Shown one piece after another: positions 24,866 through 47,231 of a stretch of DNA of 64,000 bases. The first letter of the stretch is position 1. Each line of letters opens with the position of its first letter. The stretch is from Flavobacteriaceae bacterium (lineage in GTDB: Bacteria > Bacteroidota > Bacteroidia > Flavobacteriales > Flavobacteriaceae), in the NCBI GenBank assembly GCA_024643425.1, contig JAHEMY010000003.1, positions 1 through 64,000 on the forward strand, read 5' to 3'. The notes below the pieces were generated by a model that searched no databases, was not told the DNA's origin, and saw nothing but the letters and a program-made list of their open reading frames with translations. The translations under genes and the position numbers were made by a program.

Positions 24866-24896
24866 AAAGCATCCCTGAAAAGCGGATGCTTTTTTA
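24866..24896 (+). terminator. Intrinsic terminator of gltA
   Basis: AAGCATCC (24867-24874), 9-nt loop, GGATGCTT (24884-24891), then TTTTT. It ends 11 nt before the next start codon, which argues against an upstream ATG at 24886 for that gene. Confidence 0.88.
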
Positions 24897-24906
24897 TATG
24901 GATACT

Positions 24907-25821
24907 ATGATACAGTTGCATGTAACCGACGAAATTTCTCGATTGAGAGCAGTAGTTCTTGGTACTGCCCAAAGTAATGGGCCTACCCCTAAACTACAAG
25001 ATGCTTACGATCCTAAATCGGCGGAACATATTAAAGCAGGAACATATCCTTTGGAAAAGGATATGGTGCCTGAAATGGAGGCGGTAGCTGCGGTATTTGA
25101 AAAATATGGAGTAAAGGTTTATCGTCCTGAAGTCATTAAGGATTACAATCAAATATTTTCACGTGACATAGCCTTTGTGATTGATGACAAATTTATTATC
25201 GCGAACATTCTAGAAGACCGGTCTAAAGAAATTCACGCATTGGATTATATGATTGACCAGATCGATCCTTCAAAAATTATTGAATTTCCTGAGGCTGCTC
25301 ACATTGAAGGGGGTGATGTAATGCCTTGGAACGACTACATTTTTGTGGGTACGTTCAAGGATAAAGATTACCGTAAGTACATTACGGCTCGCACCAATAT
25401 GGAAGCTGTATATCACTTGCAAAAACTATTTCCAAAAAAGAAAGTGGTTTCATTTTCATTAAAGAAATCCAACTTCGATCCTCGTGAAAATGCACTTCAT
25501 TTGGATTGCTGTTTTCAGCCTTTGGGGAAAGGAAAGGCTATTATTCATAAAGAAGGGTTTTTAATTGAAGAGGAATACCAATGGTTGGTGAATTTCTTCG
25601 GAGTTGAAAATTGTTTTCACATCACGAAAGAGGAGATGTACCATATGAATAGCAATATATTTTCTATCTCTCCAGAAGTTGTAATCTCAGAAAAAACCTT
25701 CACAAGGTTGAATACGTGGCTGCGAAAAGAAGGATTCACTGTGGAGGAAGTTCCTTATGCTGAAATTGCAAAACAAGAAGGCTTGCTTCGCTGCAGTACG
25801 ATGCCGCTAATAAGGGATTGA
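24907..25821 (+). CDS. DDAH/arginine-deiminase-like guanidino-group hydrolase
   Basis: A 304-residue member of the pentein (guanidino-group-modifying) superfamily. Members hydrolyse arginine or methylated arginine to citrulline. Visible active-site segments: FSRDIAFVIDD, HIEGGDVMPW, the catalytic His in ENALHLDCCFQPLG, and the nucleophile Cys296 in LLRCSTMPLIRD. The start MIQLHVTDEISRLRAVVLG was chosen because the alternative ATGs at 24886 and 24898 lie within or against the gltA terminator. It resembles flavobacterial proteins annotated as dimethylarginine dimethylaminohydrolase; arginine itself may be the substrate. CtlX, which acts on citrulline, is encoded 6.5 kb away, suggesting a common route to ornithine. 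Confidence 0.85.
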   Translation: MIQLHVTDEISRLRAVVLGTAQSNGPTPKLQDAYDPKSAEHIKAGTYPLEKDMVPEMEAVAAVFEKYGVKVYRPEVIKDYNQIFSRDIAFVIDDKFIIANILEDRSKEIHALDYMIDQIDPSKIIEFPEAAHIEGGDVMPWNDYIFVGTFKDKDYRKYITARTNMEAVYHLQKLFPKKKVVSFSLKKSNFDPRENALHLDCCFQPLGKGKAIIHKEGFLIEEEYQWLVNFFGVENCFHITKEEMYHMNSNIFSISPEVVISEKTFTRLNTWLRKEGFTVEEVPYAEIAKQEGLLRCSTMPLIRD

Positions 25822-25834
25822 TGAGCGTCTTTTA

Positions 25835-27295
25835 TTAGTCCAAAATAAATTTAAATCCTCCCGAAATAATACTCGCCTTTAAACCCGTGCTTCGATCGTA
25901 TTGAGCAAACCTAAGGTCGATGCTTTTCAAACCCAGTTTCCATAGGTGAAATTTCGTGAATATATCGGTGTAAATAACACCAAAACCATATTGGTTGGCA
26001 TCAAAGGCAGATAAGTCGTAATCGGAGGTATAATAATCGTCTGTAGAAAGATGATCTTCAAAGGCTGCGAAATAATCAATGGCTGTCTGCGTGTAATACC
26101 GGTATGTGGGATATACAGTAAACTTATCATTCAATTTTACCGGCATTTCAATACTTGCTGTGTGTGAGGTCATTCCCCAATTATCAAAATAATAGCGGTA
26201 ATAGGTCCGGACGGTGAACATCTCGTTGATGTAATAGTTAAACCGAAGTCCAATTGGCGTTTTGAATCGAGTATCCGGAAGTCGTTCGATATCGTCGGCT
26301 AATTGAAACACATCCTTGTTTGAAGGACTGGTGTAATTAGGAATGCTTGCCGAATTTCCAATGAAAAAATTGGCACGATCTTTAAAGTAAACTCGTTGCA
26401 TGGGGTTTGACAACCAACCCTCTTGTTGAACAAAATCGACAAATAGTGATACTTGAGCATTCTTGCTTAAAATCTGAGACAAGCTTAACGACACGGAAAA
26501 TGAATTCCTTGCTTTATTTTCGATAAGATTAAATCCATCAACAGGGCTCCAGCCATCGGTACCGTTTGGGTCGGTTGCGTTACCATTTGCATCCCAAATG
26601 GTAATGCCTTGGAAAAATCCATTATTCAAATTACCTCCAACTTCAACATACGAGTCTAATTCGGTGGGATAACGAGGGTGCCACTGATCTAAATACACTT
26701 GTGCTTTGATCCCAACTTCGGTATTTTTTTCATTGAATAACTTGGAGAAACTACCGCCAAACCCTGCTGAAAAATAATCATACTCCGTGGAGATACTGGC
26801 ATGAGCTCCCCAAATATTGTCACGATTATCAGAACTGTGAGAATAACTCACGACCACGTTGGCCCAAACATCGGAAGCCGAGGCTCCTGAAGATGCCACC
26901 CAAGGACTTCCTGTTACGCCACCAGCCGGGTTTCGGTTCTGGTTGTGGCGGTCCTCATCGTCGTCGTCATGCTCACCACTGGAGGCACCGGAAGAGTCAA
27001 AGGGGTTTAAGTTACTTGAAGAAGCGGAGGTGTAGGCAGAAATTCCGGCATCCACCGTTAAAACATCATCTTCGTTTAAGGGCATTGAAATTACAATGGT
27101 TGGTGTGATATCGGTAAGTTCTTCTGTTCCAATTCCGCCGGTAACAGCCGCATTGTCCCCGTCTTGTGCATAGTAACTCATGAGAAAATCAACTTCGGTA
27201 CTTTCCAACACGCGTTTTTTATAGGAAGTCGAAGCATCTTGCGCTTGCAAACTAATGAAAGCAAAAAGGGTTAAGATGAAGATTAACTTTTTCAT
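25835..27295 (-). CDS. DUF3570 outer-membrane barrel protein, last gene of the ApbE redox operon
   Basis: A 486-residue protein with a signal peptide (ends near ISLQAQD). It then has a long run of alternating beta-strand sequence (for example WGAHASISTEYDYFSAGFGG), typical of an outer-membrane barrel. I recognise it as DUF3570, a family without known function. Odd points: two SSGAS motifs (residues 101-105 and 135-139), resembling the [S/T]GA[S/T] acceptor used by ApbE, and between them a His/Asp stretch (His109 to His117). Its start is 3 nt after the DUF4266 stop. The tight linkage to apbE suggests a flavin- or metal-linked envelope function; this is inference. It converges with the DDAH-like gene, 13 nt apart. 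Confidence 0.85.
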   Translation of the reverse strand: MKKLIFILTLFAFISLQAQDASTSYKKRVLESTEVDFLMSYYAQDGDNAAVTGGIGTEELTDITPTIVISMPLNEDDVLTVDAGISAYTSASSSNLNPFDSSGASSGEHDDDDEDRHNQNRNPAGGVTGSPWVASSGASASDVWANVVVSYSHSSDNRDNIWGAHASISTEYDYFSAGFGGSFSKLFNEKNTEVGIKAQVYLDQWHPRYPTELDSYVEVGGNLNNGFFQGITIWDANGNATDPNGTDGWSPVDGFNLIENKARNSFSVSLSLSQILSKNAQVSLFVDFVQQEGWLSNPMQRVYFKDRANFFIGNSASIPNYTSPSNKDVFQLADDIERLPDTRFKTPIGLRFNYYINEMFTVRTYYRYYFDNWGMTSHTASIEMPVKLNDKFTVYPTYRYYTQTAIDYFAAFEDHLSTDDYYTSDYDLSAFDANQYGFGVIYTDIFTKFHLWKLGLKSIDLRFAQYDRSTGLKASIISGGFKFILD

Positions 27296-27298
27296 TTG

Positions 27299-27508
27299 TT
27301 AGTTACAGCCGCAACCGCCTCCTGTTTTGCCACCATTGGCTCCTGAAGCTCCTTCTCTGTATACTTGAAAGTTTGTTTCAAATCGTTCGATGGCCCGAGA
27401 AGATAAATTCATATCGGGATCGTTGAGATTTACCTTGTCGTATTCCTTGACCACTGCACAGGATTGTAGCGCTGCAAGAAGGATTAGTAGAATGCCAATT
27501 TTTTTCAT
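27299..27508 (-). CDS. DUF4266 small lipoprotein with Cys-Gly-Cys tail
   Basis: A 69-residue protein. A signal sequence ends in the lipobox LQSC (Cys17 acylated), giving a mature lipoprotein of about 53 residues. The middle is PDMNLSSRAIERFETNFQVY. The C-terminus is glycine-rich and ends GGGCGCN with Cys66 and Cys68. The start at 27508 is preferred over a longer frame because it gives a perfect lipoprotein signal. One nt separates it from the apbE stop. Family DUF4266 is uncharacterised. The paired C-terminal cysteines could bind metal or form a disulfide handled by the operon's thioredoxin; this is inference. Confidence 0.88.
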   Translation of the reverse strand: MKKIGILLILLAALQSCAVVKEYDKVNLNDPDMNLSSRAIERFETNFQVYREGASGANGGKTGGGCGCN

Positions 27509-27509
27509 G

Positions 27510-28499
27510 CTATTCACGATTAAATTCAATGTCTTTTGAAGTATGGATGTTATTTTGATCGTCAACAATCACACATTCTACTCCTTTCAACTGATTAATA
27601 AAATTTAAACCCGTTTCAACGCCCATCACAAAAACGGAAGTTGATAAGGCATCTGCGATTTCTGCATTCTTCGTAAAAACAGAAACGCTCTGGATTCCTG
27701 AACTCGGATAACCCGTTCGTGGATCTATAATGTGGGTGTATTTCTTGCCATTGAAGGTGACATACTTTTCATAGTTCCCTGAAGTAACCACAGCGGCATC
27801 GACCACGGGTAACCATGAGAAAACATGAGATTTGTTCAAAGGATTGGTAATGGCGACCATCCAATCTTTTCCATCGTATTGGGTGCCCCAAGTAGTAAGG
27901 TCTCCCGAAGCATTAATAATACCTCCCGACACTCCTTTTTCTTTCAACAACGCTTTGGCTTTATCGGCCGCATATCCCTTGCCAATGGCGCCAAAGCCTA
28001 TTTTCATCTCCGGGAGTTTTAAAAAAACCGTGTGGTTTTCACGGTCAAGGATAATATTTTCATATCCTACGCGCGCCACGGAAGCTTTGATAGCTTCTTC
28101 TGAGGGCATCTCGGTCATGCTTCCATCAAATTTCCAAAGTTTATCCATGGAAGCAAAACTAATATCGAAGGCTCCCTCCGTAAGTTTGGATATTTTTAAA
28201 GCACGGTCGATCAAGTCGAAGAGTTCTGTACTTACTTGAACCGGCTTTAATCCGGCGTTTCTGTTAATATCCGAAGTTTCTGAATTTGGATCCCATGAGG
28301 AAATCACCCGTTCTATTCGAGTAATTTCTTTCACGGCATCGTCAATAAACCGGTTCCCTTGGATGGAGTCTTCGGCAACCACTGTAATATCAAAACGACT
28401 TCCCATTAATTTTAGCGTTCGCTTAAAATTATTGGTTCCCTGGGCAATGACGTTAAAGCTAAGCCCGATGATGAAAACAATATAGAGGCTGCGTTTCAA
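27510..28499 (-). CDS. apbE: FAD:protein FMN transferase (ApbE)
   Basis: A 329-residue exported protein that covalently attaches FMN from FAD to Ser/Thr of extracytoplasmic proteins. A signal peptide (ends near NVIAQ) is present with no lipobox Cys. Family motifs in order: LMGSRFDITV near residue 31, then EGAFDISFASMDKLWKF, GFGAIGKGYAADKA, GGIINASGDLTTWG, and THIIDPRTGYPSSG with the metal-ligand Asp. No NqrC/RnfG-type substrate is encoded nearby. The acceptor may therefore be a neighbour (DUF3570 or DUF4266) or lie elsewhere. Four nt from the thioredoxin stop. Confidence 0.95.
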   Translation of the reverse strand: MKRSLYIVFIIGLSFNVIAQGTNNFKRTLKLMGSRFDITVVAEDSIQGNRFIDDAVKEITRIERVISSWDPNSETSDINRNAGLKPVQVSTELFDLIDRALKISKLTEGAFDISFASMDKLWKFDGSMTEMPSEEAIKASVARVGYENIILDRENHTVFLKLPEMKIGFGAIGKGYAADKAKALLKEKGVSGGIINASGDLTTWGTQYDGKDWMVAITNPLNKSHVFSWLPVVDAAVVTSGNYEKYVTFNGKKYTHIIDPRTGYPSSGIQSVSVFTKNAEIADALSTSVFVMGVETGLNFINQLKGVECVIVDDQNNIHTSKDIEFNRE

Positions 28500-28503
28500 A
28501 GCA

Positions 28504-28941
28504 CTATTTTATAAAAGATTGGAGATGTTCAATGTATTTTTCAGCAGAGAGTTTCTTATACCCTGTTTCTCCCAATACTGCGCCTTTAGCATTCAAAACA
28601 ACAACAAAAGGAAATATTCCCTGCTTGTTGTATTTTTCAGCCAGCATTTTATTCTGTTCTTCTTGTTTTGTCGATAGCGCATTTTTCTTTTTTCGTGGAA
28701 AATCGGCTTGAAGCATCACATAATGATTCTCGGCATATGTTTTAAAGGAATCTGTGGACCAAACTTCACGATCTAATTTTATACACGGAGCACACCAATC
28801 GCTTCCCTGAAATACAAGAACGATAGGAATATTTTTATCTGAAGCGAATTTTTTAGCAGTATCAAAATCGGATTGCCAGTTTTGTGAAAAAACACCATTG
28901 ATACACCCTAGGACGAACAATATGTTAAAGATTTTTTTCAA
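28504..28941 (-). CDS. Exported thioredoxin-fold protein, first gene of the ApbE operon
   Basis: A 145-residue protein with a signal peptide (ends near GVFSQ) and a thioredoxin-7/DUF255-like fold. The active site is WCAPC (Cys50, Cys53) in FQGSDWCAPCIKLDREVW, and the cis-Pro segment is GIFPFVVVL. It probably acts in the periplasm on cysteines of partner proteins. It heads the four-gene operon (intergenic gaps 4, 1 and 3 nt). No clear TAnnTTTG promoter was found in the 106 nt upstream. Confidence 0.9.
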   Translation of the reverse strand: MKKIFNILFVLGCINGVFSQNWQSDFDTAKKFASDKNIPIVLVFQGSDWCAPCIKLDREVWSTDSFKTYAENHYVMLQADFPRKKKNALSTKQEEQNKMLAEKYNKQGIFPFVVVLNAKGAVLGETGYKKLSAEKYIEHLQSFIK

Positions 28942-29047: not shown

Positions 29048-30643
29048 TTAATTCGAAATCAGTATTTTATGATCAAGATAATAGCGATTGTCAATGTTTA
29101 GAGTAAGAAAAAGAATTCCCGAGTTATTTGCATCGGGCAACGTTAAGGACTGAATGGTGACTTCCGGATCAAGAGATCCATAATCCAAGATGCTCCCTTT
29201 AATATCGGAAACGAAATAATAGCAGGAATTACTCGGTTTTTTATTTAATTGAATTTGAATGGCACCTTTTGTGGGATTGGGGGTTATTTGTACGGTATAA
29301 GGGTTCAATCCATTCACACTTTCCAAATCTAATGGATTTCGGTTCAAGCGAACCTCATAGATGGTAGGATTTGCTTGGGTTTGATTGGTTTGGTTTGAAT
29401 TGAAAGGATTTCGAAGCGGACTCTCAATGCCTCCAAAAATATGACCAATGATAAAAGATTCGTCGGAAACTTCGGAAAGTGAAATAATGTCTCCTTCCAA
29501 TAGAGGAAGTGTTTTGTTGGTAATAAATTCGGCACTTGCCCCTTCTAAGAGGGGCATTTCAATAGGTAATACAAATTCTTCAAAGCTTCCATCTTGATGT
29601 CTGGTAAGTAAACTTATCGTTTTTACAAAAGGCACATTGTTATCCTGTATTAGAGTTCCATTGCTGTAATAGTATTGACTCATACCTCCAAAAAACAGAT
29701 TGTGCATTTCTTCTGTATTGCTATCATATAGGGATGTTGAAGCAGAATGGTAGTTACTTAGGTATTGATTGAATTCGGTGTGTGGTGTAATGCTGTTTTC
29801 ATCAATATCAACTGGATAAGGATAGGGAAGGTCTGCAATTAATTGAAAAACCCCTGAAGAGATTGTGTAGCCAAAATTGCCTCCCGGAAATATTTGGGGA
29901 AGTAGGTTGTAATCTCTTCGGTGGAGATGTACATTATCGGTGAGTGTTTGATAATTGTCGAAACTAAGCTGTGAGCCGCTATTATCGATGGTGAATTTGC
30001 GAATTTGATTAGTGTATTCTTGAACATACGACGCCCCACCCATTGGGTTATAACGTCCGTCAAAACGATGACCCCCAATTAGGTAAAAATAATTGTTCAG
30101 TTTGCCCAATTGCCCCCCGGTTACAGCAAAAACATCATTCGCGACTTGTTTTATAAAATTTGAGAAAGGTTGATTATTAATAATCGCGTTTATGGTAGCA
30201 GGTACATCGATGGATGTAAGAAAGGGGAAGGTTACATGATCGTTGGCCGTTGGAGAAAACGCATATCCACCAATGATAAACAATGTATCCTGATCTTGAT
30301 AAAAGTTCATGTTAGTGGATTGTAATTGCTCTTGAATGCTTGTCGTGAGCGAAGAAAGAGGAGCAGACCATACTTCCATTGCTTGGACATCCACCACATA
30401 TAAGGTATCGTTGTTTTGGGATTCAGGAAAGGCATTAAAAGGTTGTCGTGCGTGCAAACCATCTACTCGTCCGCCAACGATGAGCCACTTTCCTTCATGC
30501 TGACCTACTGCATAGGAATGCAATCCTGGCAGTCCACTTAGATTAATAGGAACTAATTCCAGTTGGAATTCAAAAGTGTTTTGAGAATGTACATTGTATG
30601 CAGACAATACTACAATCAACATACCGAGCAGAAACCGTTTCAT
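29048..30643 (-). CDS. Secreted kelch-like beta-propeller with T9SS type A sorting domain
   Basis: A 531-residue protein with a signal peptide (ends NVHSQ). It has several kelch-type blade motifs with paired glycines: WLIVGGRVDG, LFIIGGYAF, FYLIGGHRFDG, NLFFGGMSQYY and IFGGIES. The last roughly 75 residues (ITPNPTKGAIQIQL ... HKILISN) match a Por/T9SS type A C-terminal sorting domain, which directs export and surface anchoring. The role is probably binding or adhesion at the cell surface. No enzyme motif was seen. Monocistronic by spacing. Confidence 0.85.
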   Translation of the reverse strand: MKRFLLGMLIVVLSAYNVHSQNTFEFQLELVPINLSGLPGLHSYAVGQHEGKWLIVGGRVDGLHARQPFNAFPESQNNDTLYVVDVQAMEVWSAPLSSLTTSIQEQLQSTNMNFYQDQDTLFIIGGYAFSPTANDHVTFPFLTSIDVPATINAIINNQPFSNFIKQVANDVFAVTGGQLGKLNNYFYLIGGHRFDGRYNPMGGASYVQEYTNQIRKFTIDNSGSQLSFDNYQTLTDNVHLHRRDYNLLPQIFPGGNFGYTISSGVFQLIADLPYPYPVDIDENSITPHTEFNQYLSNYHSASTSLYDSNTEEMHNLFFGGMSQYYYSNGTLIQDNNVPFVKTISLLTRHQDGSFEEFVLPIEMPLLEGASAEFITNKTLPLLEGDIISLSEVSDESFIIGHIFGGIESPLRNPFNSNQTNQTQANPTIYEVRLNRNPLDLESVNGLNPYTVQITPNPTKGAIQIQLNKKPSNSCYYFVSDIKGSILDYGSLDPEVTIQSLTLPDANNSGILFLTLNIDNRYYLDHKILISN

Positions 30644-31353: not shown

Positions 31354-32289
31354 ATGGGACAAATCACCAATACCCTTCTCATGATCCGCCCGGTAGCATT
31401 CAGGATGAATGAACAGACCGCTGTAAATAATTATTTCCAAGAAGATTTGGATCTCAAGAATGCTGAAATCAATAGAAAGGCACAGCAAGAGTTTGATGCT
31501 TTTGTGGAGAAGTTGGAGGCTGTTGGAGTTCAGGTCATTGTTGAAAACGACGACTTATTAATGGACACTCCGGACTCTATTTTTCCTAACAATTGGGTGA
31601 GTTTTCACAGCAACGGCGTTGTGGCATTGTATCCTATGTTTGCTGAAAACCGTAGGAGAGAGCGTCGTGAGGAAATTATGGATCGTCTGGAAGAGGAAGG
31701 TTTTCTTATTGAAGGGTTTATGGATTATACCACTGCTGAGGAAGAGGATGTCTTCCTAGAAGGAACCGGAAGTATTTTAATGGATCGTGTAAACGAAAAA
31801 GCATATTGTGCGCTTTCTCCGAGGGCAGATGAGCTACTTTTTATTGAGTTTTGTGAAGATTTTGAATGTGATCCGATTGTTTTTAACGCCTATCAAACGG
31901 TAGATGGACAACGACTTCCAATTTATCATACCAATGTGATGATGTGTCTGGGGGAACAGTTCTGTGTGATTTGCTTGGACAGTATCGACGATCTTTCTGA
32001 ACGCAAAGAGGTGGTAAAACAACTGCGAAGCAGCGGAAAAGAAATTATTGAAATTACAGAAGAACAAATGCACCATTTTGCCGGGAATATGCTTCAGGTA
32101 ATGGGTGCGAGAGAACAGCGCTACTTGGTAATGAGCGATGCTGCTTATAAATCGTTAACCATTGAGCAAGTTGAAAAATTAGAAAAGTACGGTCCTATCA
32201 TTAGTAGTGATTTAGAAACCATTGAGACCTGTGGAGGCGGAAGTGCCCGTTGCATGATGGCGGAGGTGTTTTTGCCAAAGGCGAATTAA
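31354..32289 (+). CDS. ctlX: Citrulline hydrolase CtlX (pentein fold)
   Basis: A 311-residue member of the guanidino-group-modifying superfamily. Its Francisella homologue CtlX converts citrulline to ornithine, CO2 and ammonia. Active-site segments: FPNNWVSFHSNGVVALYPM, EGTGSILMDR, the His in YHTNVMMCLGEQFCVICL, HFAGNMLQV, and the Cys in GGGSARCMMAEVFLP. Together with the DDAH-like hydrolase at 24.9 kb it would complete arginine to citrulline to ornithine. Single gene with its own promoter. Confidence 0.9.
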   Translation: MGQITNTLLMIRPVAFRMNEQTAVNNYFQEDLDLKNAEINRKAQQEFDAFVEKLEAVGVQVIVENDDLLMDTPDSIFPNNWVSFHSNGVVALYPMFAENRRRERREEIMDRLEEEGFLIEGFMDYTTAEEEDVFLEGTGSILMDRVNEKAYCALSPRADELLFIEFCEDFECDPIVFNAYQTVDGQRLPIYHTNVMMCLGEQFCVICLDSIDDLSERKEVVKQLRSSGKEIIEITEEQMHHFAGNMLQVMGAREQRYLVMSDAAYKSLTIEQVEKLEKYGPIISSDLETIETCGGGSARCMMAEVFLPKAN

Positions 32290-37308: not shown

Positions 37309-39864
37309 TTAGAACAGAACTTGAACCGAGAAATTGGGGGTAAACCCTAAACTCGATTCTTCGATTCGATTGATGTCCGAATCAATATCAGCTGGGTCTT
37401 CAAGTGCGTAACGGATGTTCAAAGTGTTGTCTTGATTCGTCATATTGAGCAAGGCCAAATTGAACACAGCATCAACCTTGCTAGAAATTTTCCAAAGGTA
37501 TTCTGCCGAAAAATCCACTCGGAGGTAATCATTTAAACGCTCTTCATTAGGATCGCTGTAATCGATGGTTAGAAAGCCTTCTCCAAAAATAGGCGGGGCA
37601 TCGGTTTTCGGAACGGTATAAGGCCTTCCCGAATGCCAATTTAGGCCCAAAGCAAATTTAAATGCATTCCAGTTATACGATGAGGCGACGGTAAGGGTAT
37701 GTCGAACATCGATATTATTAGGAAATTCACTGGGCGTAAAAGAGGTGAAGTCATAATCGTTCTTCCCAAAACCATAACTCATCCAAATACTAAGATCTGA
37801 GATTTTCTTGTTGATGGTAAATTCGGCTCCGGTGACGGAATAATTCCCGAGGGCGGTTTCAAATTGAAACTGGTTTTGAAATCCCTGACTTTTACTGGTA
37901 ATGTTCTCCACATTTTTAATGAAACCTTCGAGATTTATAAACCACCCTTTTTTATGGTAGAGGAACCCTAATGAGGCTTGTCGACTTTTTTTGATGGGAA
38001 CGTCATTGTTGTTTGCCAAAACCCACCTGCGTTTTTCAATCCCCAAAAAATCACTTTGTAGATCGATGCGTTGTGTTAACGTCTGGCTTTTAAATTCTCC
38101 AAGTACTTCCAAAGCAAACCCGGGCAATAATTCCTGGTACACATAAAGTCTTGGTTCGACCAAAACCTCGCTAAATTTTTCAAAGTAATTGCCTCGTACG
38201 CCCGCATCGATTCTAGTTTTTTTATTGTCTGTGCGATATATTAAGTTTCCATATGCAATATGGGATCGAAGTACATTCTTTTCATAATCCCTAAAGCGTG
38301 GTAAATTCACGTCTTGGATATTAGAGATTCCAATTTCGGAGAAATGATACCCCGATTTGAGTTCGAAGAGATTTGATAATCTTAGTTTGGTGTCAAGTTT
38401 TGCTTCAAGATCCAGTACTTGGTTTTCCTGATTAATTTCTTGAAAAGTAAAGATGTCTTGATTTACGGCCTTTAATAGGTAATGGGTCGCCTGGATAGCA
38501 AGGTTTGTTTCGAAACGATCGGTCCATTCCCGTTCCCAAGATATACCGGCTGCCTCACTTTTCTGTTCGAGTCGACTGGTTTCCTCACTTTCTAGAAGTC
38601 GTTCCGAAAATTCAAAGTGGTTTTCCATAGCGATGAAGTTGACCCGGACCCGATCTTTTTCGGTTGGATCCCAAAGTACTTTTCCTCCCACATCGAAGAA
38701 ATAAAAGTCTTCTTGGAATAAGACTTCGGTAAAGGATTCTGAATTTTGGTTGTTGGTGATTTCGGTATCTTGAAAGATACGGTCGGAAAAATTAGAATAT
38801 ACGGGCGACTGAAAGATTCCGTTGATAGAAGACCGTCCGGAAATTTGAAGTCCTACTTTTTCGTTGATGGGAAGTTCCAGAAACGCATTGGCATTGATAA
38901 GGTTTGCGCCAATACCTCCTCTAAAATTTTTAGCGATATCGTTGTTTGAAGCCATTGAAATTACTCCTGAAACACTTTCTCCAAATCGGGCAGGAGTACC
39001 ATTTTTATAAACCGTTAAGTCTTTCGTAAGGTTTGGGTTAAATGCAGAGATTAAGCCAAAAAAGTGCCCAATTTGATACATGCGAAGGCCTTCCCATAAG
39101 ATTAAATTCTCGTCGTTGGTTCCTCCTCGTATGTTAATGGTAGATATGGTTTCGTTGATGCTTTCAACCCCGGGAAGGGCTTGTGCTATTTGCAATACAT
39201 CATTTTCCGTTTGACCCGGAAGTAATCCAAAGTTATTTGTATTGAGACTAGTAGAGCCGTCAACATTCCGATTGATTCCCTTTACCAAGATTCCACTTAT
39301 GAGCACCTCATTTAAACTTGAAATGGATGGAAGCATCAAGAGTTTGGGAACATCTTTTGAGAGTTCTGCCCCTGAAATAACCAAGGTGTGAAACCCTATA
39401 TGGCTAATTTGTATTTCGTTATTGGCATATTGTTTTGGGATGAAAAACCTTCCGTTTTTATCTGAAACAGTATTAAACTGAGCTCCTGTTACGGAAACCG
39501 AAGCATTTTCAAGGGGTTCGCCCGAACCATTGTCTATAATATACGCTCCAAGGGTATTCGGTTCATTTCGGACCTTAGCCACCGAATAATAGCGATCACT
39601 AATTTTTTCAAAGTGAAATGCCGTATTGCTATTCAGGTATTGTATGGATTCCTCCAAATTGAGGGTTTCAGACGGAGGAGTGATCATGTAATCCGAGACT
39701 TCATCAATCACGTAGGAAAATAAAATCTCGTGTGCCCGTTCTAAATTTAGAATGACCTTATACAAAGAGACCTCTGTTTCGTTTTGCGCATTCGAAGTGA
39801 ACGATGCTAAAAATAAAAATAGGCCAAATAGGAATAAAAGTGGTTTAGTTGCTGTTTTTGGCAT
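37309..39864 (-). CDS. FecA-like TonB receptor with N-terminal signalling domain (module 1)
   Basis: An 851-residue outer-membrane receptor. In order: signal peptide (to about residue 26); secretin/TonB short N-terminal signalling domain (about 30-97, VILNLERAHEILFSYVID...); carboxypeptidase-regulatory-like domain (about 104-185, LENASVSVTGAQFNTVSDKN); plug (NIRGGTNDENLILWEGLRMY); 22-strand-type barrel ending in Phe. The signalling domain contacts a FecR anti-sigma factor in known systems. fecR is immediately upstream and overlaps it by 20 nt. No SusD partner exists. The ligand is unknown; there is no siderophore gene nearby. Clearly paralogous to the receptor of module 2. Confidence 0.93.
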   Translation of the reverse strand: MPKTATKPLLFLFGLFLFLASFTSNAQNETEVSLYKVILNLERAHEILFSYVIDEVSDYMITPPSETLNLEESIQYLNSNTAFHFEKISDRYYSVAKVRNEPNTLGAYIIDNGSGEPLENASVSVTGAQFNTVSDKNGRFFIPKQYANNEIQISHIGFHTLVISGAELSKDVPKLLMLPSISSLNEVLISGILVKGINRNVDGSTSLNTNNFGLLPGQTENDVLQIAQALPGVESINETISTINIRGGTNDENLILWEGLRMYQIGHFFGLISAFNPNLTKDLTVYKNGTPARFGESVSGVISMASNNDIAKNFRGGIGANLINANAFLELPINEKVGLQISGRSSINGIFQSPVYSNFSDRIFQDTEITNNQNSESFTEVLFQEDFYFFDVGGKVLWDPTEKDRVRVNFIAMENHFEFSERLLESEETSRLEQKSEAAGISWEREWTDRFETNLAIQATHYLLKAVNQDIFTFQEINQENQVLDLEAKLDTKLRLSNLFELKSGYHFSEIGISNIQDVNLPRFRDYEKNVLRSHIAYGNLIYRTDNKKTRIDAGVRGNYFEKFSEVLVEPRLYVYQELLPGFALEVLGEFKSQTLTQRIDLQSDFLGIEKRRWVLANNNDVPIKKSRQASLGFLYHKKGWFINLEGFIKNVENITSKSQGFQNQFQFETALGNYSVTGAEFTINKKISDLSIWMSYGFGKNDYDFTSFTPSEFPNNIDVRHTLTVASSYNWNAFKFALGLNWHSGRPYTVPKTDAPPIFGEGFLTIDYSDPNEERLNDYLRVDFSAEYLWKISSKVDAVFNLALLNMTNQDNTLNIRYALEDPADIDSDINRIEESSLGFTPNFSVQVLF

Positions 39865-40750
39865 AGAGCATCACTTCATTGTCTTCAATTTTAAATTCCA
39901 ATTGTAGGGGCTCACAAATAGTTCGGAGGGCAACATTCAAATCTTTATGGGTAAAGCTTCCTGTGAATCTTTTATTCACCACACTTTGGTTGTTTATTTT
40001 AATGGGATATTGGCGCTGCAACTCATCCAATACGGCAGATAATGAAGCATTTTCGAATGTGCTTTCATAATGAATCCAAGAAGGAGCTCCTTCCGTAGTT
40101 GTTTCCAAGGCAATTAATTGATTGTTTTGAACTCTCAAATAGGTCCCGGCAGGAACTTTCACCAACGTATCTTGATACGCAACGCTCACCAAGCCTTCAA
40201 AGCATTTCACATAAAACTGAGAGCCGCGAGCAAAGACATTGAATTGTGTTCCCAACACCGAAACAACACCTTGTTCAGTGTGCACACTAAATTTTTTACC
40301 CTTTTGAACTTTAAAATAAGCTTCACCATGAAGCTCGAGGTCTCGATGGTCGTCCCAATCCTTTTCGCTAAACGAAATTTCAGACAATGCATTTAACACT
40401 ACTTCCGATTGATCGGGTAGCGAAAACGATTCTCTCTGAGCTATTTCAGTAGAAAAATTGGTATTGCTGTTACTTAAAAATAAGTAGGTGGTAACCACGA
40501 GTACAACAACGGCCGCAACCCTTAAAAATATGTTTAAAGGATTCAACCTACGCACTTGAGGCTGCAAAGGCAATCTGCCTCGAATCGCTTCTATATTAGT
40601 ATCCGCGCTAAATTCTGGAAGTTGGAATCCGGGAGTGGCTTCCGCAATTTTTATGTAAGAGGCATATTCTGAATCTGTCTTCAGCCGATTTATTTCTTCA
40701 GCAGTAGCAGTACCATTCAAAAATTTATGCAATATGTAGTTTTTGTCCAT
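39845..40750 (-). CDS. FecR-family anti-sigma factor (module 1)
   Basis: A 301-residue inner-membrane protein. A cytoplasmic sigma-binding part covers residues 1-70. One transmembrane helix follows (about 73-92, FLRVAAVVVLVVTTYLFL). The periplasmic FecR domain contains ESFSLPDQSEVVLNALSEIS, HGEAYFKVQ and SVLGTQFNVFARG. The C-terminal DUF4974/STN-like domain (about 232-301) is expected to touch the receptor's signalling domain. It transmits ligand binding to the sigma factor. Its 3' end overlaps the receptor gene by 20 nt. The promoter-like element GGTAGG-N17-TGTT lies in the gap before it. Confidence 0.95.
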   Translation of the reverse strand: MDKNYILHKFLNGTATAEEINRLKTDSEYASYIKIAEATPGFQLPEFSADTNIEAIRGRLPLQPQVRRLNPLNIFLRVAAVVVLVVTTYLFLSNSNTNFSTEIAQRESFSLPDQSEVVLNALSEISFSEKDWDDHRDLELHGEAYFKVQKGKKFSVHTEQGVVSVLGTQFNVFARGSQFYVKCFEGLVSVAYQDTLVKVPAGTYLRVQNNQLIALETTTEGAPSWIHYESTFENASLSAVLDELQRQYPIKINNQSVVNKRFTGSFTHKDLNVALRTICEPLQLEFKIEDNEVMLYAKNSN

Positions 40751-40776
40751 GATCTAATTTTCAATCTCACTACTGT

Positions 40777-40803
40777 AACAGTTAAAGAGCACTTTACCCT
40801 ACC
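40777..40803 (-). promoter_or_regulatory. Candidate ECF promoter of fecR-receptor, module 1
   Basis: Minus strand: GGTAGGGTAAA (40803-40793), 8 nt, then TAACTGTT; TGTT occupies 40780-40777. The same 11-base block and the TAnCTGTT block, equally spaced, recur before the lipoprotein gene of this module. It lies inside the 56-nt gap between sigma and fecR. Confidence 0.7.
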
Positions 40804-40806
40804 TAA

Positions 40807-41310
40807 TTATATTTCTTCGATTTCATTTCGAAGGGATGCCAACGCCTGACTCATTCTTTTTTCCACGGCTTTAACCGAAATATCAAGTATCTCCGCAATT
40901 TCTGCATATTTTTTTCCTTCAATACGATTCATTAAAAATGCGGTTCGTTGCGCTTCGGTTAAATTGGCAATGGCCGTTTGGAGTTTTTTATGAAATTGCT
41001 TTTCTTCTAATATATATTCCGGGGATTGCTCATTTATTTTATGAGGTTGCAATTGGGCATGTTTCAGCACCACTTTTTTGTGAGCGACCTCATTTAAAAA
41101 CATATTATTGGCTACGGTGTAGAGAAAAGACTTTGCTTTTTCTTGGGTGACTTTGGCGCAATTCTGCCATAGCTTAATGAATGCTTCTTGAACAAGATCA
41201 TCTGCTTGGGCGGCATCTCCACATTTATAATAGATAAAATGGTAAATGGGCTTTCCCCAAATAGCATGTAAATCGTTAAATATTTTCTCCGAACAAACGT
41301 CCTTAGCCAT
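40807..41310 (-). CDS. ECF sigma-70 factor (FecI-like), module 1
   Basis: A 167-residue sigma factor with region 2 (AQADDLVQEAFIKLWQNC) and region 4 helix-turn-helix (YAEIAEILDISVKAVEKRMS), no other domains. It would redirect RNA polymerase when FecR is stimulated. First gene of sigma-fecR-receptor; the candidate target promoters lie just after it and upstream of the divergent lipoprotein. Paralogous to the module 2 sigma along its whole length. Confidence 0.95.
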   Translation of the reverse strand: MAKDVCSEKIFNDLHAIWGKPIYHFIYYKCGDAAQADDLVQEAFIKLWQNCAKVTQEKAKSFLYTVANNMFLNEVAHKKVVLKHAQLQPHKINEQSPEYILEEKQFHKKLQTAIANLTEAQRTAFLMNRIEGKKYAEIAEILDISVKAVEKRMSQALASLRNEIEEI

Positions 41311-41413: not shown

Positions 41414-43192
41414 ATGAACCCAATGAATTACTTACGAATTATTGCCGTGTTTGCCGCGATGCTTTTTTTAGGTTCTTGTCAGAAAGAAGAAAGAGAGTTT
41501 ATCGACGACACTACGAATGAAGAAACCTTCACGGCCGGATCAGATCTTACGCGTATTTTATTAAGTGCGTCACAAAATGATGGAACATTAGACAACCTTA
41601 TCGATGGAAGTAGTTGTATCGCCATTACATACCCCACACAGGTAGTTGCCAATGGACAAAGCATTACCTTAAATTCTATCGATGATATTAGTTTGGTTGA
41701 AGCAATTTTTGATCAATTTCCGGGGGATAGCGATCAATTGGAAATTATTTTTCCAATTACGGTTGTTACCGAAGCATTTGATGAAATTTTAGTGGAAAGT
41801 CAAACTGCCTTTGATAGTATCGTGGCGGCTTGTGAGAACAACATTGTGGATACCTATACCTGTGTGGATTTTGTTTACCCAATAAGTTGTTTTATTTACA
41901 ACGCATCCAACGAACAAACCAATACGGTAACCCTAAATAACGATTACGAGTGGTTTGAATACTTAAACTACTTGCAATCGGGTATTTACGTGGCTATCGA
42001 TTATCCAATGACGGTAATTGTGAATGGTGAAACCATTGTAGTGAATACCAATCAAGAATTGAACACCGCAATTTCTAGTGCAAATTGTTCCAATGGAGGA
42101 GGTGGTGGCAACCCAAGTGATTTTGAGAATATTATTACTACAGGAGTCTGGTATGTGACTTATTTCTTTGACGATTTTGATGAAACTTCCGATTTTGCTT
42201 CTTACGAATTCTCCTTTGCTAGTGACGGAACTGCAAATGCTTCGAATACTACAGGAAACACCCCAGGAACTTGGGATTATTATTTGGACAGCGGCGTAGA
42301 GAAAGTAGACCTTTTCTTTGGAGTAGTGAGTCCGCTGGATGAACTTGATGAAGATTGGGATATTTTAGAAGCTACAGAAGCTATTATAAGACTGCGACAT
42401 GAAAGTAGTGATGGTAGTTTGGATTATGTCACCTATGAACGAGATCCTTATACCGGCGGTGGCGGTGGAGGAGGAGTGAATCCTTTTATCACTGAAATTA
42501 CTGCAGGTTCTTGGTTTGTGAATTTGTTGGAAGACGACGGAACCGATGAGACTTGTGATTATGTGAGCTATGAATTCACCTTTAACGTGAACGGAACAGT
42601 TGCCGCGGTAAGTGATACCAATACCAAAAACGGTTTTTGGTCGGCTCTAGATGATAGTAGCGGTTTAGATTTAGTACTTAGTTTTGAGCTTAGCGGAAAC
42701 GATGATCCGTTCGAAGATCTAAACGACGACTGGGATGTAACCAATTACACTTCTTCCATCATACAACTTATCGATGTGAGTGGTGGCGGTGGTGGCACCG
42801 ATTACTTGAACTTTGGCAGAGATCCATACACAGGATGTGGTGGCGGTGGCGGAGGTTCCGATTTAACCGATATCCTACTTAACGGACCTTGGTTTGTGGG
42901 CACTTATCTCGACGATGGTGTGGATGAAACCTACGATTACTATGGATACAATATCACCTTTTCGAGCGACAATACTGTGGTTGCTGAAAATGGAGTAAAT
43001 ACTATAAATGGTACCTGGAGCGTTATAGGAAGCACAGATCTTGACTTAGTTCTAGATTTTGGAACTCAAATTCCATTCGATGAATTCAACGACGACTGGG
43101 ATGTGTTATCTTATACTACTACAACCATCAACCTGCAGGATGTAAGCGGTGGAGGTGGCGGAACCGACACCTTGATCCTTGAAAAACTTTAA
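41414..43192 (+). CDS. Large lipoprotein: four YP repeats plus three tandem DWD domains
   Basis: A 592-residue lipoprotein (lipobox LGSC, Cys22). Residues about 45-225 hold four beta-repeat units with the pattern hydrophobic-x-(Y/F)P...NG...: CIAITYPTQVVANGQ, LEIIFPITVV, CVDFVYPISCF and YVAIDYPMTVIVNGE. Then three homologous domains of about 110 residues (236-346, 357-472, 482-592), joined by Gly-runs. Each contains W(Y/F)V, D-DET or DETxD, Y-FTF, GT/GFW and a D-DWD motif. They look like small lipocalin-like beta-barrels, very acidic. Not assigned to any family I know. It is probably surface-exposed and works with the receptor of module 1. Confidence 0.85.
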   Translation: MNPMNYLRIIAVFAAMLFLGSCQKEEREFIDDTTNEETFTAGSDLTRILLSASQNDGTLDNLIDGSSCIAITYPTQVVANGQSITLNSIDDISLVEAIFDQFPGDSDQLEIIFPITVVTEAFDEILVESQTAFDSIVAACENNIVDTYTCVDFVYPISCFIYNASNEQTNTVTLNNDYEWFEYLNYLQSGIYVAIDYPMTVIVNGETIVVNTNQELNTAISSANCSNGGGGGNPSDFENIITTGVWYVTYFFDDFDETSDFASYEFSFASDGTANASNTTGNTPGTWDYYLDSGVEKVDLFFGVVSPLDELDEDWDILEATEAIIRLRHESSDGSLDYVTYERDPYTGGGGGGGVNPFITEITAGSWFVNLLEDDGTDETCDYVSYEFTFNVNGTVAAVSDTNTKNGFWSALDDSSGLDLVLSFELSGNDDPFEDLNDDWDVTNYTSSIIQLIDVSGGGGGTDYLNFGRDPYTGCGGGGGGSDLTDILLNGPWFVGTYLDDGVDETYDYYGYNITFSSDNTVVAENGVNTINGTWSVIGSTDLDLVLDFGTQIPFDEFNDDWDVLSYTTTTINLQDVSGGGGGTDTLILEKL

Positions 43193-43230
43193 CCAAAAAA
43201 TAATATTATTAATTGAAAACCTCAGTAATT

Positions 43231-43740
43231 ATGAAAAAGACATTTTTAAAAACAATCGCCCTTTTTTCCCTTGCAATTGCCTTTGTAGCTTGTTCTTCGG
43301 GAGATGATCCGGCTCCTGATGACAACAATAATAACAATAATAACAATCAAACCAGTGCCGATATCACTACAGATATTGCTGAAACCGGTGCTTGGCGAAT
43401 CACAAGCTTTATTGATTCCGGTCAGGATGAGACTGCCGATTTTAACGGATATACCTTTACGTTTAATCCTAATGGAACCCTCATCGCTACTAATGGCTCT
43501 GATACCGTAACGGGCACATGGAGTGTGACTGACGATAGTTCGAATTCATCCAGCGACGACGATGGTAATTCGACCGATGACGACGATTTCAACATCTTCT
43601 TCCCGGTTCCTGAGTCGAATAAATTTGAAGACCTGAATGATGATTGGGATTTTGTTTCGGTATCGAATACAAAAATCGAATTGATTGATATAAGCGGAGG
43701 AAACGGTGGAACCGATTTGCTTACCTTTCAGAAAGTATAA
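43231..43740 (+). CDS. Small lipoprotein with one DWD domain
   Basis: A 169-residue lipoprotein: lipobox FVAC, an Asn-rich linker (eight consecutive Asn in a run after PAPDD), then one copy of the domain that is triplicated in the preceding gene. Shared elements are TGAWRITSFIDSGQDET, FNGYTFTFNPNGT, GTWSV, DLNDDWDF and a Gly-Gly-Thr-Asp end. The ATG at 43231 gives a proper lipoprotein signal; a TTG at 43213 is less likely. It follows the large lipoprotein by 38 nt, likely in one operon. Confidence 0.85.
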   Translation: MKKTFLKTIALFSLAIAFVACSSGDDPAPDDNNNNNNNNQTSADITTDIAETGAWRITSFIDSGQDETADFNGYTFTFNPNGTLIATNGSDTVTGTWSVTDDSSNSSSDDDGNSTDDDDFNIFFPVPESNKFEDLNDDWDFVSVSNTKIELIDISGGNGGTDLLTFQKV

Positions 43741-43758: not shown

Positions 43759-43790
43759 AAAAGTCCCGGATTTTATCCGGGATTTTTTTT
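43759..43790. terminator. Terminator between converging module 1 lipoprotein and module 2 receptor
   Basis: TCCCGGA (43764-43770), loop TTTTA, TCCGGGA (43776-43782), then eight T. It serves the plus strand, and may help on the minus strand through the A-rich left flank. Confidence 0.88.
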
Positions 43791-46284
43791 AATATAAAAC
43801 CCTTAATGAAAAATTGGGGGTAAAACGCAAAGCAAATTCATCAACTTCCTCCACAATTCCTTCATTGTTGATTCGGAAGAAATGATTGATCGCATTGGGC
43901 CGATCCAATAAATTCCAAATCGAAGCACCGGCAAATAATTCAAAATCCCCCATGGTAAATTTATAGGTTCCCGAGATATCCACCCGAACATAATCGTCTA
44001 TGTTTTCGGTGTTCGGACTGCCAAAATTGAGGTTTCCATCCACGATTTCGTTGCCTTCGACAAGTAAAGTGGTTGGCTTGCCGGAATGCCAATTAACCCC
44101 GGCCGAAATATTAAAGCGATTGAGGGAATAATCGATACCATAGGTGAAGGTATGTCGAATGTCGAGGTTGTTGCTGAATTCATCCGGGACAAGATCATTG
44201 AAGGTGTAATTGTTCTTCGAATACGAGTAGCTCAACCAAGTGTTGAACGTTTTGAAGCGTTTATTCATTAGAAAGTCTACACCAATGATGTTATACTCAC
44301 CATGCGTTTTTACGTTTTCAAATTGATTCTGAAACCCCTGACTTTGGGTCGTTATTCCTTCTACCTGCTTGATGTAGGGTTCTATGTTTACCAACCATCC
44401 TTTTCGGTTCACTGTAATCCCTGTCGATAATTGTTTGCTTTTTATAATGGGAATGCTGCCCGGTTTTGATAATACCCACCTGCGATTTTCCACACCGAGA
44501 AAATCATTTTGAAAATCGATGATTTGCGAGGTAGTCTGACTTTTCATTTCTCCTAGTATTTCAAAAGTGAAATATTTCAGAAAACGATGGTTGAAGCTCA
44601 AGCGTGGCTCGATCAACCATTCGTCGAATTTTCCAATGTGATTCACGCGAACTCCTGCGTTGAGAAGAGTATTCTGAGTGGGTTGATAATGAACTTCTGA
44701 AAACAAACTTTGGGTGCGCAACACTTGCTTATCGGTTCGCTCGAAAAAAGGATTGTTGATTTGCTCAAAATTGGTAATCCCGGTTTCGTTAAATTGATAT
44801 CCGGCAATAGCATCTATTTGATTACTTAAGGTGTAGTTTCCTTTCAATTTAATTCCAGATTCTCGAACTTTATTTTGTTGAATAAGACGTTGGTCGTTAA
44901 TTATATCAAAGTTGGTTGCTTGTAAAAGATAAGAACTACCATAAAATTGAGCTTCGGTATTAAATTTTGAATTCCATAGGCGTTGGTAATAAAAACCACT
45001 GGAAATATTCTCCTGCACAAGATCGCTTCCAAGAGATTGGGGAATTTCATTCACTGTTGCGTTCTCTAAAAACTGGAGTTCATTACCCATTAAAACGATA
45101 TTGGCTCTAAAACGGTCCTTTTCATTAGGATGAACTAACGCCCGAATACTTGTGTCGTAAAATGTAAAGGTATCATCCGAAGTAGAAAATGAACCTCCCA
45201 TAGAGGTTAACTCGGTATTTTGAAATGCTTTATCAAAATAGGAACTATACGTGGGTGTTTCAAACAAATTGTTGATTGATTTACGACCTGAAATTTGTAG
45301 GGATCCGATACCTCCCAGAGGAAGATCGGCAAAAGCATCGGCACTCAATAAATTTAGCCCCGCGCCAATCCTTAGTTTTTTTGTAATCTCTTTAGAACCC
45401 TCCATCGATAACACCCCTGAAACGCCATCGCCCAACGCAGCTGTCGTTCCATTTTTTATGAGGGTTAATTCTTCGGTAAGTTGTGGGTTAAAAGCAGAGA
45501 TAAGTCCGAAGAAATGCCCGTTTTGATACATTTTTATTCCGTCCCATAGGATGAGGTTTTGATCATTGGTGCCACCGCGAATGTTGAGGTAAGAAACGGT
45601 TTCATTCACACTTTGAATACCCGGTAATGCTTGAACAGTCAATAATACATCAGGTTCGATTAATCCGGGGAGAATATCAAATTCACTATAATTTACCGTT
45701 AAGGAACCGTTTAGATTCTTAGAGATACCCTTGGCGAGATAGTTGTTCAAGATGACGGTATTTAACACCTCTATTTTTGGGGTTAGATACACGGGCTGGC
45801 AGGGTGATTTCGTGAACGTAGCCCCCGGTAAACGCAGCGTGTTATAACCGGGATATTCAATAAGGACATTTTCATCAGAAGAATTCAACAATAGTGAAAA
45901 ATTCCCTTCAGAATCGGAAACAATCTGTTCATATGGTGATTGAACGAGCACTTGAGGAAATCCTTCTTTAGAAGTGTTATTGATGATGTTTCCACAAATG
46001 GAAATTATATCGTCTTTTTCACTAATTGCAATAAGGTTGTTTTCAACCTCAGTAAAATCAAAGAGGCTATTTTGCGAAAGATAAGGAAGCGCTTCGGAAA
46101 GTTTATTAAAGGATTTTGGTGTAATATAATAATTGGTAATATCGGAATCTCGAAAAGAAAAATTACACGAAAATTGAGCTTCAAGCTCTTCTATATAGGC
46201 GCGGAGGGGCGAACGCTCTTGAGCGTTTATTAGAAGTGTGAAAAAAAAAGTAAATAAAAAAAGTAGGCTCTTTTTTTTAGTCAC
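43789..46284 (-). CDS. FecA-like TonB receptor with N-terminal signalling domain (module 2)
   Basis: An 831-residue receptor with the same layout as module 1. Signal peptide (ends LLINAQ), signalling domain (about 27-95), carboxypeptidase-like domain (about 97-175), plug and barrel ending in Tyr. The plug segment NIRGGTNDQNLILWDGIKMY differs from module 1 by only a few residues, as does GHFFGLISAFNPQLTEEL. The signalling domain has diverged much more, as expected if each pairs with its own FecR. It overlaps the upstream fecR by 8 nt. Confidence 0.93.
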   Translation of the reverse strand: MTKKKSLLFLFTFFFTLLINAQERSPLRAYIEELEAQFSCNFSFRDSDITNYYITPKSFNKLSEALPYLSQNSLFDFTEVENNLIAISEKDDIISICGNIINNTSKEGFPQVLVQSPYEQIVSDSEGNFSLLLNSSDENVLIEYPGYNTLRLPGATFTKSPCQPVYLTPKIEVLNTVILNNYLAKGISKNLNGSLTVNYSEFDILPGLIEPDVLLTVQALPGIQSVNETVSYLNIRGGTNDQNLILWDGIKMYQNGHFFGLISAFNPQLTEELTLIKNGTTAALGDGVSGVLSMEGSKEITKKLRIGAGLNLLSADAFADLPLGGIGSLQISGRKSINNLFETPTYSSYFDKAFQNTELTSMGGSFSTSDDTFTFYDTSIRALVHPNEKDRFRANIVLMGNELQFLENATVNEIPQSLGSDLVQENISSGFYYQRLWNSKFNTEAQFYGSSYLLQATNFDIINDQRLIQQNKVRESGIKLKGNYTLSNQIDAIAGYQFNETGITNFEQINNPFFERTDKQVLRTQSLFSEVHYQPTQNTLLNAGVRVNHIGKFDEWLIEPRLSFNHRFLKYFTFEILGEMKSQTTSQIIDFQNDFLGVENRRWVLSKPGSIPIIKSKQLSTGITVNRKGWLVNIEPYIKQVEGITTQSQGFQNQFENVKTHGEYNIIGVDFLMNKRFKTFNTWLSYSYSKNNYTFNDLVPDEFSNNLDIRHTFTYGIDYSLNRFNISAGVNWHSGKPTTLLVEGNEIVDGNLNFGSPNTENIDDYVRVDISGTYKFTMGDFELFAGASIWNLLDRPNAINHFFRINNEGIVEEVDEFALRFTPNFSLRVLY

Positions 46285-47179
46285 TGCTAGTTGGTTTAAG
46301 CTTTACGGTATCTCCCTCAATTTGATAAGACAATTTAAGGGGAATTGTAATAGCTTGCAAGGCAGCTTCTAAATTTTTGTGTGAAAAGCTTGTGGTAATC
46401 AAGGTAGTTTTAAGCGAACCTTCATACAACAGGGTAACATTGAACTGTCGTTCAATTTCGTTCAGCACTTCTTGGAAAGGAATACTTTTGAAGTTCGAAC
46501 GGTTTTCAAGCCAAGTTGGCTTTATCTCGCTCGTTACAGCACGTTCGCTGGAATTGCCGTAGGCTCTAAATTCGTTTCCGGCAGGGAGCATTATTTTTTC
46601 ATCTTGGTATCGAACTTCAACCAAGCCTTCATAACAAATTACTTCAAAAAAATCTGCTCTAGATTTTACATTGAATTCAGTTCCTAAAACTGTGATAGTT
46701 CCGTTTGGGGTATGCACTGAAAATGCGCTTCCTTTGGCCACGTCAAAAAACGCCTCGCCTTTAAGCTCTAAAGAACGATTAGCATTCCAGCTTTCTTTTT
46801 GGTAGCTTACTTCCGACCCCGCATTTAATACAACACGGGAATCGTCGGGAAGTTGTAGGGAAATCTGTTCAGTATTGTGGGCAAAAAAAGTATCGGGTTG
46901 TTCATGAAAATATCCGTAATAAACACCAAGGCATACAATTAAGATTGCAGCGGCGCTTGACATCATACGTTTCCATGGATACACTTGTTTTTGAGTCTGC
47001 TTCTCCTTTAAAATTCGAGCGTAAACTTCTTCTTGTTCAAAGGTAGGAGCTTTGAATTTTTGAACCGCACGATCAATCTTCAAATAAGCACTAGAGGCGT
47101 CCAATTTCTCGAACGCCCTTAGCTCTTTCTCCTCAAGGCTGTGATTCAGCCAATTGATAATTAAATCTTCCTTTTTCAT
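46277..47179 (-). CDS. FecR-family anti-sigma factor (module 2)
   Basis: A 300-residue protein with a cytoplasmic N-terminus, one transmembrane helix (about 71-88, MMSSAAAILIVCLGVYYG), a FecR domain (SLQLPDDSRVVLNAGSEVSY, GEAFFDVAKGSAFSVHTPNG, TVLGTEFNVKSR) and a C-terminal DUF4974-like domain. Same role and order as module 1. Preceded by its own copy of the GGTAGG element in the 52-nt gap after sigma. Confidence 0.95.
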   Translation of the reverse strand: MKKEDLIINWLNHSLEEKELRAFEKLDASSAYLKIDRAVQKFKAPTFEQEEVYARILKEKQTQKQVYPWKRMMSSAAAILIVCLGVYYGYFHEQPDTFFAHNTEQISLQLPDDSRVVLNAGSEVSYQKESWNANRSLELKGEAFFDVAKGSAFSVHTPNGTITVLGTEFNVKSRADFFEVICYEGLVEVRYQDEKIMLPAGNEFRAYGNSSERAVTSEIKPTWLENRSNFKSIPFQEVLNEIERQFNVTLLYEGSLKTTLITTSFSHKNLEAALQAITIPLKLSYQIEGDTVKLKPTSSD

Positions 47180-47195
47180 GTCAATTCATGTATAA

Positions 47196-47222
47196 AACAA
47201 CCCACACTTAAAAATTCCTACC
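47196..47222 (-). promoter_or_regulatory. Candidate ECF promoter of fecR-receptor, module 2
   Basis: Minus strand: GGTAGGAATTTTTA (47222-47209), 8 nt, TTGTTTTAT; TGTT is at 47199-47196. The 14-base and the 9-base blocks are repeated exactly, with equal spacing, before the lipoprotein of this module. Confidence 0.72.
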
Positions 47223-47231
47223 GTGATTGCA

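Follow-up and report, generated by a model that had tools for sequence, protein, structure and literature searches.

A thioredoxin-ApbE-DUF4266-DUF3570 operon in a Flavobacteriaceae genome and the putative flavinylated outer-membrane barrel that it encodes

Four tandem genes on the minus strand of the analysed stretch of DNA, the full 64 kb of which is here called the window, encode a thioredoxin-fold protein, an ApbE protein, a DUF4266 protein and a DUF3570 protein, separated by intergenic gaps of 4, 1 and 3 nt. The first gene (28504..28941, minus strand) codes for an exported thioredoxin-fold protein of 145 aa of the Thioredoxin_7/DsbH-like type (PF13899, 57 bits against a cut-off of 27), the WCAPC active site of which is located at 28783-28797 (minus strand). 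It is followed by the gene for ApbE, an exported FAD:protein FMN transferase of 329 aa (27510..28499, minus strand; PF02424, 294 bits against a cut-off of 25.6), in which the TSGNYEK and HIIDPRTG motifs are both present and which matches an FMN transferase in the PDB (7esa) with an E value of 3e-48; both of these genes start with a TTG codon. The third gene (27299..27508, minus strand) encodes a DUF4266 lipoprotein of 69 aa with the lipobox LQSC (PF14086, 71.5 bits against a cut-off of 27) and a glycine-rich tail ending in GGGCGCN, with the CXC codons at 27305-27313 (minus strand). A longer frame for DUF4266 beginning with TTG was rejected as unnecessary; the gene begins at the ATG at 27508. 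The fourth gene (25835..27295, minus strand) encodes a DUF3570 protein of 486 aa, which is a predicted 16-strand outer-membrane barrel and the presumed substrate of ApbE (PF12094, 115 bits against a cut-off of 25). A sequence-only reading of this locus had proposed four closely spaced genes, all with exported products, and this is borne out by the ORF coordinates and the Pfam matches, which all exceed the curated cut-offs, as well as by the lipobox, the predicted barrel and the signal-peptide-like N-termini of all four products.

Upstream of the operon is a gene for an exported protein of 531 aa without a Pfam match (29048-30643), and downstream is an arginine-deiminase-like gene on the opposite strand. 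Relatives of arginine/citrulline hydrolases are found on either side of the operon region (24886-25821 and 31354-32289, plus strand), one of which is CtlX, above its cut-off (447 bits), and an arginyl-tRNA synthetase gene is located at 35511. In five Lutibacter relatives (L053, L057, L062, L063, L066), DUF3570 is followed by a run of genes resembling arginine and proline biosynthesis.

Clusters of thioredoxin, ApbE, DUF4266 and DUF3570 genes have been described by Meheust et al. (eLife 2021; PMC8238504) under the name "DsbD systems," and the novelty implied by the sequence-only reading was thus misplaced, as both the cluster and the flavinylation of DUF3570 were published in 2021. The passages of that paper on these clusters report 285 flavinylation clusters with DsbD, most of which have DUF3570, a PF13899 thioredoxin and DUF4266, along with 316 four-gene clusters without DsbD, and they point out the conserved CXC tail of DUF4266. 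Furthermore, the DUF3570 protein of Chlorobium luteolum is reported there to be flavinylated upon co-expression with its cognate ApbE, and flavinylation was lost only when both sites were mutated. The operon in the window has the same four protein families as the published cluster, a DUF4266 that likewise ends in CXC, and an ApbE for which DUF3570 is the presumed substrate, but its DUF3570 differs in reading TSAS at the first attachment site (site A) and in carrying an additional SGAS within an acidic insert. One of the two published forms of the cluster features a linked DsbD gene, of which none was identified in the 64-kb window; a DsbD gene is present on another contig of the genome (C183). 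Since the 316 clusters counted in PMC8238504 are likewise without a linked DsbD, this linkage is optional and the membership of the operon in the published system stands. The operon is therefore a member of a published, functionally little-explored system, the core idea of which is already known. In a full-text search of the literature, PMC8238504 was the sole paper that named either DUF4266 or DUF3570 and no paper testing the function of the cluster was found; searches of two follow-up papers (PMC11334425, PMC12052999) turned up no passage on DUF3570. The refinements presented here, which concern variants of the attachment sites, the outer-side topology and the linkage to pumps and Rieske proteins, are computational, and term searches of the main text of PMC8238504 found neither barrel topology, pump or Rieske linkage nor families without SGAS.

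Of 149 genomes of the same family, sampled at one per genus, 56 encode DUF3570, and DUF4266 was identified in 113 of 395 genomes of the phylum. The order Trx-ApbE-DUF4266-DUF3570 is retained on one strand in 74 of 80 DUF3570 loci picked by DUF3570 similarity from named genomes; the other six are mostly cut by contig ends, or else contain a fusion or have one gene undetected. The same gene order recurs in 24 of a further 40 loci that are more distant and represent 12 families of the phylum. This is far beyond chance and implies that the four-gene set is a functional unit. Co-occurrence in other genomes had been suggested as a check on the sequence-only reading, which passes it, and its view of the operon as an envelope flavin/thiol system is in our opinion right, given the conserved gene unit and the flavinylation of DUF3570 by ApbE reported in PMC8238504. 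The thioredoxin and ApbE genes are fused in two genomes (L084, L160). Two other candidate fusions (L164, L173) were dismissed as start-codon artefacts, the N-terminal part not being a thioredoxin. In a family taken to represent the green sulfur bacteria from its BChl-A protein (f18), a TlpA-type thioredoxin, DUF4266, DUF3570, ApbE and DsbD are all found together. Three deeply branching loci (L153, L154, L156) contain a protein with a Tat-signal-like N-terminus and a NusG_II domain (PF07009) between ApbE and DUF3570, possibly a further partner. Flavobacterium cheniae (L081:5916-9443) has two DUF3570 genes with a response-regulator gene between them, the first copy containing one SGAS motif and the second two.

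The sequence-only reading had also found no known ApbE substrate at the locus, which does not hold, as DUF3570 is a demonstrated substrate class (PMC8238504, in its account of C. luteolum) and the protein in the window contains two [ST]GA[ST] motifs (mean of 0.07 in shuffled sequences; P of at least two = 0.002) in addition to a conserved TSAS. Among the four products in the window, [ST]GA[ST] is found in DUF3570 only. Site A (TSAS, residues 89-92; 27020..27031, minus strand) is at the top of strand 3 and aligns with the canonical DxxSGAS of the green sulfur bacteria, and site B (SGAS, residues 136-139; 26879..26890, minus strand) immediately precedes strand 4. Of the two [ST]GA[ST] motifs, only that at site B aligns with a site in the green sulfur bacteria, the other homologous site being the TSAS. 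Site C (SGAS, residues 102-105; 26981..26992, minus strand) is an optional extra site in the acidic insert; the acidic loop insert SGEHDDDDEDRHNQNRNPAGGVT (26912..26980, minus strand) is missing in many relatives and is modelled with low confidence. In the green sulfur bacteria, both sites are [ST]GAS and site A has the full Dxx[ST]GAS, whereas the window protein has TSAS rather than SGAS at site A and no consensus Asp at site B. The number of [ST]GA[ST] motifs per DUF3570 protein is two in 52, one in 28 and three in 1 of 81. Three motifs were observed in the DUF3570 proteins of L074 (7866-9527) and L021 (1021-2544), which indicates that the number of candidate flavins varies among the relatives.

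Sampled members of eight families (f2, f3, f4, f9, f10, f11, f16, f35) have no [ST]GA[ST] anywhere in DUF3570 while keeping the operon. One explanation is that DUF3570 is no longer flavinylated in these families and that ApbE modifies another exported protein, and the retention of the operon in about eight families, as judged from the sampled members, would fit such a scenario. However, these same proteins mostly have [ST][SA]AS with the consensus Asp at site A, the exception being ASAS in f9, and mostly [ST][SA]AS at site B. Across 12 families with identities of 21-57%, the family-weighted conservation at site A is 0.92 for both the Ala and the acceptor Ser, and at site B, across 12 families, it is 0.81 for the Ala, 0.79 for the acceptor Ser and only 0.34 for the Gly. 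Thus, the acceptor Ala-Ser is among the best conserved positions of DUF3570 and is retained at overall identities as low as 21-41%, whereas the Gly of the motif is not conserved. Moreover, a Gly to Ala replacement in the motif of a fumarate reductase kept about 50% flavinylation and replacement of the Asp had minor effects, according to the parts of a review that deal with the motif (PMC12052999). A loss of flavinylation in these families consequently seems improbable to us, and we infer from the alignments that the [ST][SA]AS sites may well be working attachment sites.

The gene content of the genome also bears on the identity of the substrate. Besides the ApbE gene in the window, the genome has only one other, on contig C102 beside an NqrF-like sequence, and its only FMN_bind protein is encoded on the same contig, 3 kb from the second ApbE gene, in what is an Nqr locus. 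With the second ApbE and the sole FMN_bind protein both in the Nqr locus, DUF3570 remains as the substrate for the ApbE in the window, provided that the 96%-complete assembly misses none. A main role of the window ApbE in serving Nqr was rejected because the second ApbE gene sits in the Nqr locus.

An AlphaFold2 model of the window DUF3570 based on 75 homologs predicts a 16-strand barrel with a mean pLDDT of 87.9, and the same topology was obtained for a shorter homolog from Fulvivirga (pLDDT 88.5). In both predictions, one end of the closed, antiparallel barrel has short turns and the opposite end has long loops. A PDB sequence search identified no relative of DUF3570. Structural matches were obtained to BamA, PelB, BcsC and other outer-membrane barrels (Z 17.8-21.5), with alignments that span the first to the last strand, and these are matches to barrels in general. 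Counting the strands from a periplasmic N-terminus places every long loop on one side, which in outer-membrane barrels is usually the outer side. In the model, all candidate flavin sites are on the loop that connects strands 3 and 4. The flavin sites are thus predicted to be on a single extracellular-side loop facing the outside or the upper lumen, and this loop, for which the model has low confidence (pLDDT about 45-66), may also fold into the lumen. Since ApbE is periplasmic, a site on the outer side has to receive its FMN prior to barrel insertion or else be on a loop that folds inward. It is unclear whether the outer-side loops are more conserved than the rest of the protein, with at least 95% conservation in 29% of the loop columns as compared to 24% of those in strands and turns.

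On the thiol side, the thioredoxin is most similar to DsbH-type reductases and matches a "thioredoxin disulfide isomerase" in the PDB (2ju5, E 7.6e-16). Its score in the NCBIfam DsbH model is 89 bits, below the equivalog cut-off of 190 bits, and it is therefore considered related to DsbH without being assigned as such. The GCGCN tail of DUF4266 is present in 79 of 79 relatives. DUF4266 was also evaluated as a flavin acceptor and rejected: its tail sequence GASGAN is similar to the motif, yet the acceptor position is occupied by Asn. With Asn where the motif needs Ser or Thr, and with the CGCN end, DUF4266 is more likely to function as a thiol carrier than to accept a flavin, and the simplest reading is that a tethered, flexible CXC arm could pass electrons from the thioredoxin to the flavins of the barrel. 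The earlier proposal that the DUF proteins form or receive a redox cofactor at the outer membrane thus survives for DUF3570 as the receiver and fails for DUF4266, which has no acceptor residue.

We hypothesize that the operon builds a flavinylated outer-membrane barrel and feeds it through a thiol relay, an explanation that we hold to be probable, with appreciable room for doubt. ApbE would attach FMN to the serines of DUF3570, in analogy with what PMC8238504 reports for the relative in Chlorobium. Cytosolic electrons would pass to the DsbD encoded elsewhere in the genome and onward to the periplasmic thioredoxin, from which they could be transferred to the C-terminal CXC of DUF4266, a flexible lipoprotein that would serve as a mobile thiol arm on the periplasmic side of the outer membrane. 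From this arm they may reach the FMN of the barrel and then an acceptor outside or within the barrel. Another possibility is that the relay operates in reverse or in protein repair, such that the barrel flavins serve as an oxidant or sensor while the thioredoxin and DUF4266 maintain the thiol state of other exported proteins. Although the similarity of the thioredoxin to DsbH, a periplasmic disulfide reductase, is in line with this scheme, the persistence of the four genes as one unit and the adjoining DsbD gene in the green sulfur bacteria fit a supply of reducing equivalents to the barrel, and we find this scheme hard to favor.

If electrons leave the barrel as we hypothesize, the acceptor might most likely be a metal ion, as suggested by recurring neighbors of the cluster such as efflux pumps, VIT1 and FecI/FecR/TonB-receptor sets. 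Pumps of the CusA/CzcA family (TIGR00914, 1186 bits against a cut-off of 701) occur in 14 of 52 loci at a distance of no more than 10 kb from DUF4266, as compared to the 0.57 expected on the basis of copy number and genome size. At the genus level the linkage is seen in 6 of 23 genera as compared to 0.55 expected. Nine of the 14 loci are from one genus, the pump of one genome (G403) scores weaker and may be another subtype, and the 10 kb limit fits the pump distances while a 5 kb limit gives none (the CusA midpoints are 5-10 kb from DUF4266), so that the exact figure is soft. In three loci (L098, L112, L161) the thioredoxin gene follows the pump genes after gaps of about 30-75 nt, giving a head-to-tail CusA-CusB-Trx-ApbE-DUF4266-DUF3570 arrangement, and in L164 a Rieske-domain gene is interposed between the pump genes and the thioredoxin gene. 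Rieske lipoproteins (PF00355) are encoded immediately upstream of the thioredoxin in L168, L170-172, L174, L175, L182 and L076; the Rieske calls in L164 and L168 are from a Pfam scan and the others from a Cys-His pattern. VIT1 is found downstream of the cluster in L177, and the cluster descriptions in PMC8238504 also mention VIT1 beside other such clusters. In about 17 of 80 loci, the cluster is bordered by ECF sigma/FecR/TonB-receptor sets.

Such neighbors could also mean that the system is an accessory to metal export, either by setting the oxidation state of envelope metals for a CusA/CzcA-type pump or with the flavin barrel as a port. The excess of linked pumps and the head-to-tail arrangements speak for this, as do CopRS-like two-component genes immediately downstream in Flavobacterium. 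On the other hand, the window and most of the loci have no metal pump, the linked loci are concentrated in a single genus, and the pumps carry a DFGxxxDGA helix motif, which we take to indicate divalent ions rather than Cu(I). Such divalent ions (Zn, Co, Ni, Cd) are not known to be reduced by flavins. We therefore consider a role in metal export to be rather unlikely and retain the hypothesis of a flavinylated barrel fed by thiols. No metal gene was found beside the operon in the window, and most relatives are without a nearby metal pump; the pump, Rieske, VIT1 and ECF/FecR/TonB neighbors taken together hint at metal or iron, short of proving it. Two ECF sigma/FecR/TonB-dependent-receptor cassettes are located in the window at 37309-41310 and 43789-47747 (minus strand), 8-19 kb from the operon, and are of the same general type as the sets that flank the operon in relatives (28-53% identity). 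Between them are two plus-strand genes for proteins of 592 aa (41414-43192) and 175 aa (43213-43740) without any Pfam or NCBIfam match.

In the porin-cytochrome conduits of extracellular electron transfer, a barrel with redox cofactors could carry electrons across the outer membrane. The likeness to the system discussed here is a functional analogy only, as this has no haem and no cytochrome, and instead a single loop with two or three candidate flavins. Other ApbE systems (NqrC/RnfG, PepSY and MsrQ-like), as far as they are described in the relevant parts of PMC8238504 and PMC11334425, likewise have covalent FMN on an exported protein and draw their electrons from the inner membrane, but there the FMN is carried by small domains that are soluble or located in the inner membrane, as opposed to the outer-membrane barrel and thiol-based feed considered here.

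Our findings raise the tentative idea, to which we give less than even credence, that ApbE also flavinylates [ST]-[SA]-A-S, so that the DUF3570 barrels of the Bacteroidota, including those of the families without [ST]GA[ST], would carry two or three covalent flavins on an outer-face loop and serve as a haem-free, thiol-fed electron port, associated with metal-efflux pumps in several lineages. Searches for [ST]GA[ST] would miss proteins with [ST][SA]AS, and a wider motif could enlarge the list of ApbE substrates. The links to pumps, Rieske proteins and VIT1 point towards metal as the first candidate to consider. The cluster is widespread in the genomes of the Bacteroidota, and if the flavins are indeed located at the outer face of the barrel, many of these bacteria would be able to pass electrons to the exterior without haem.
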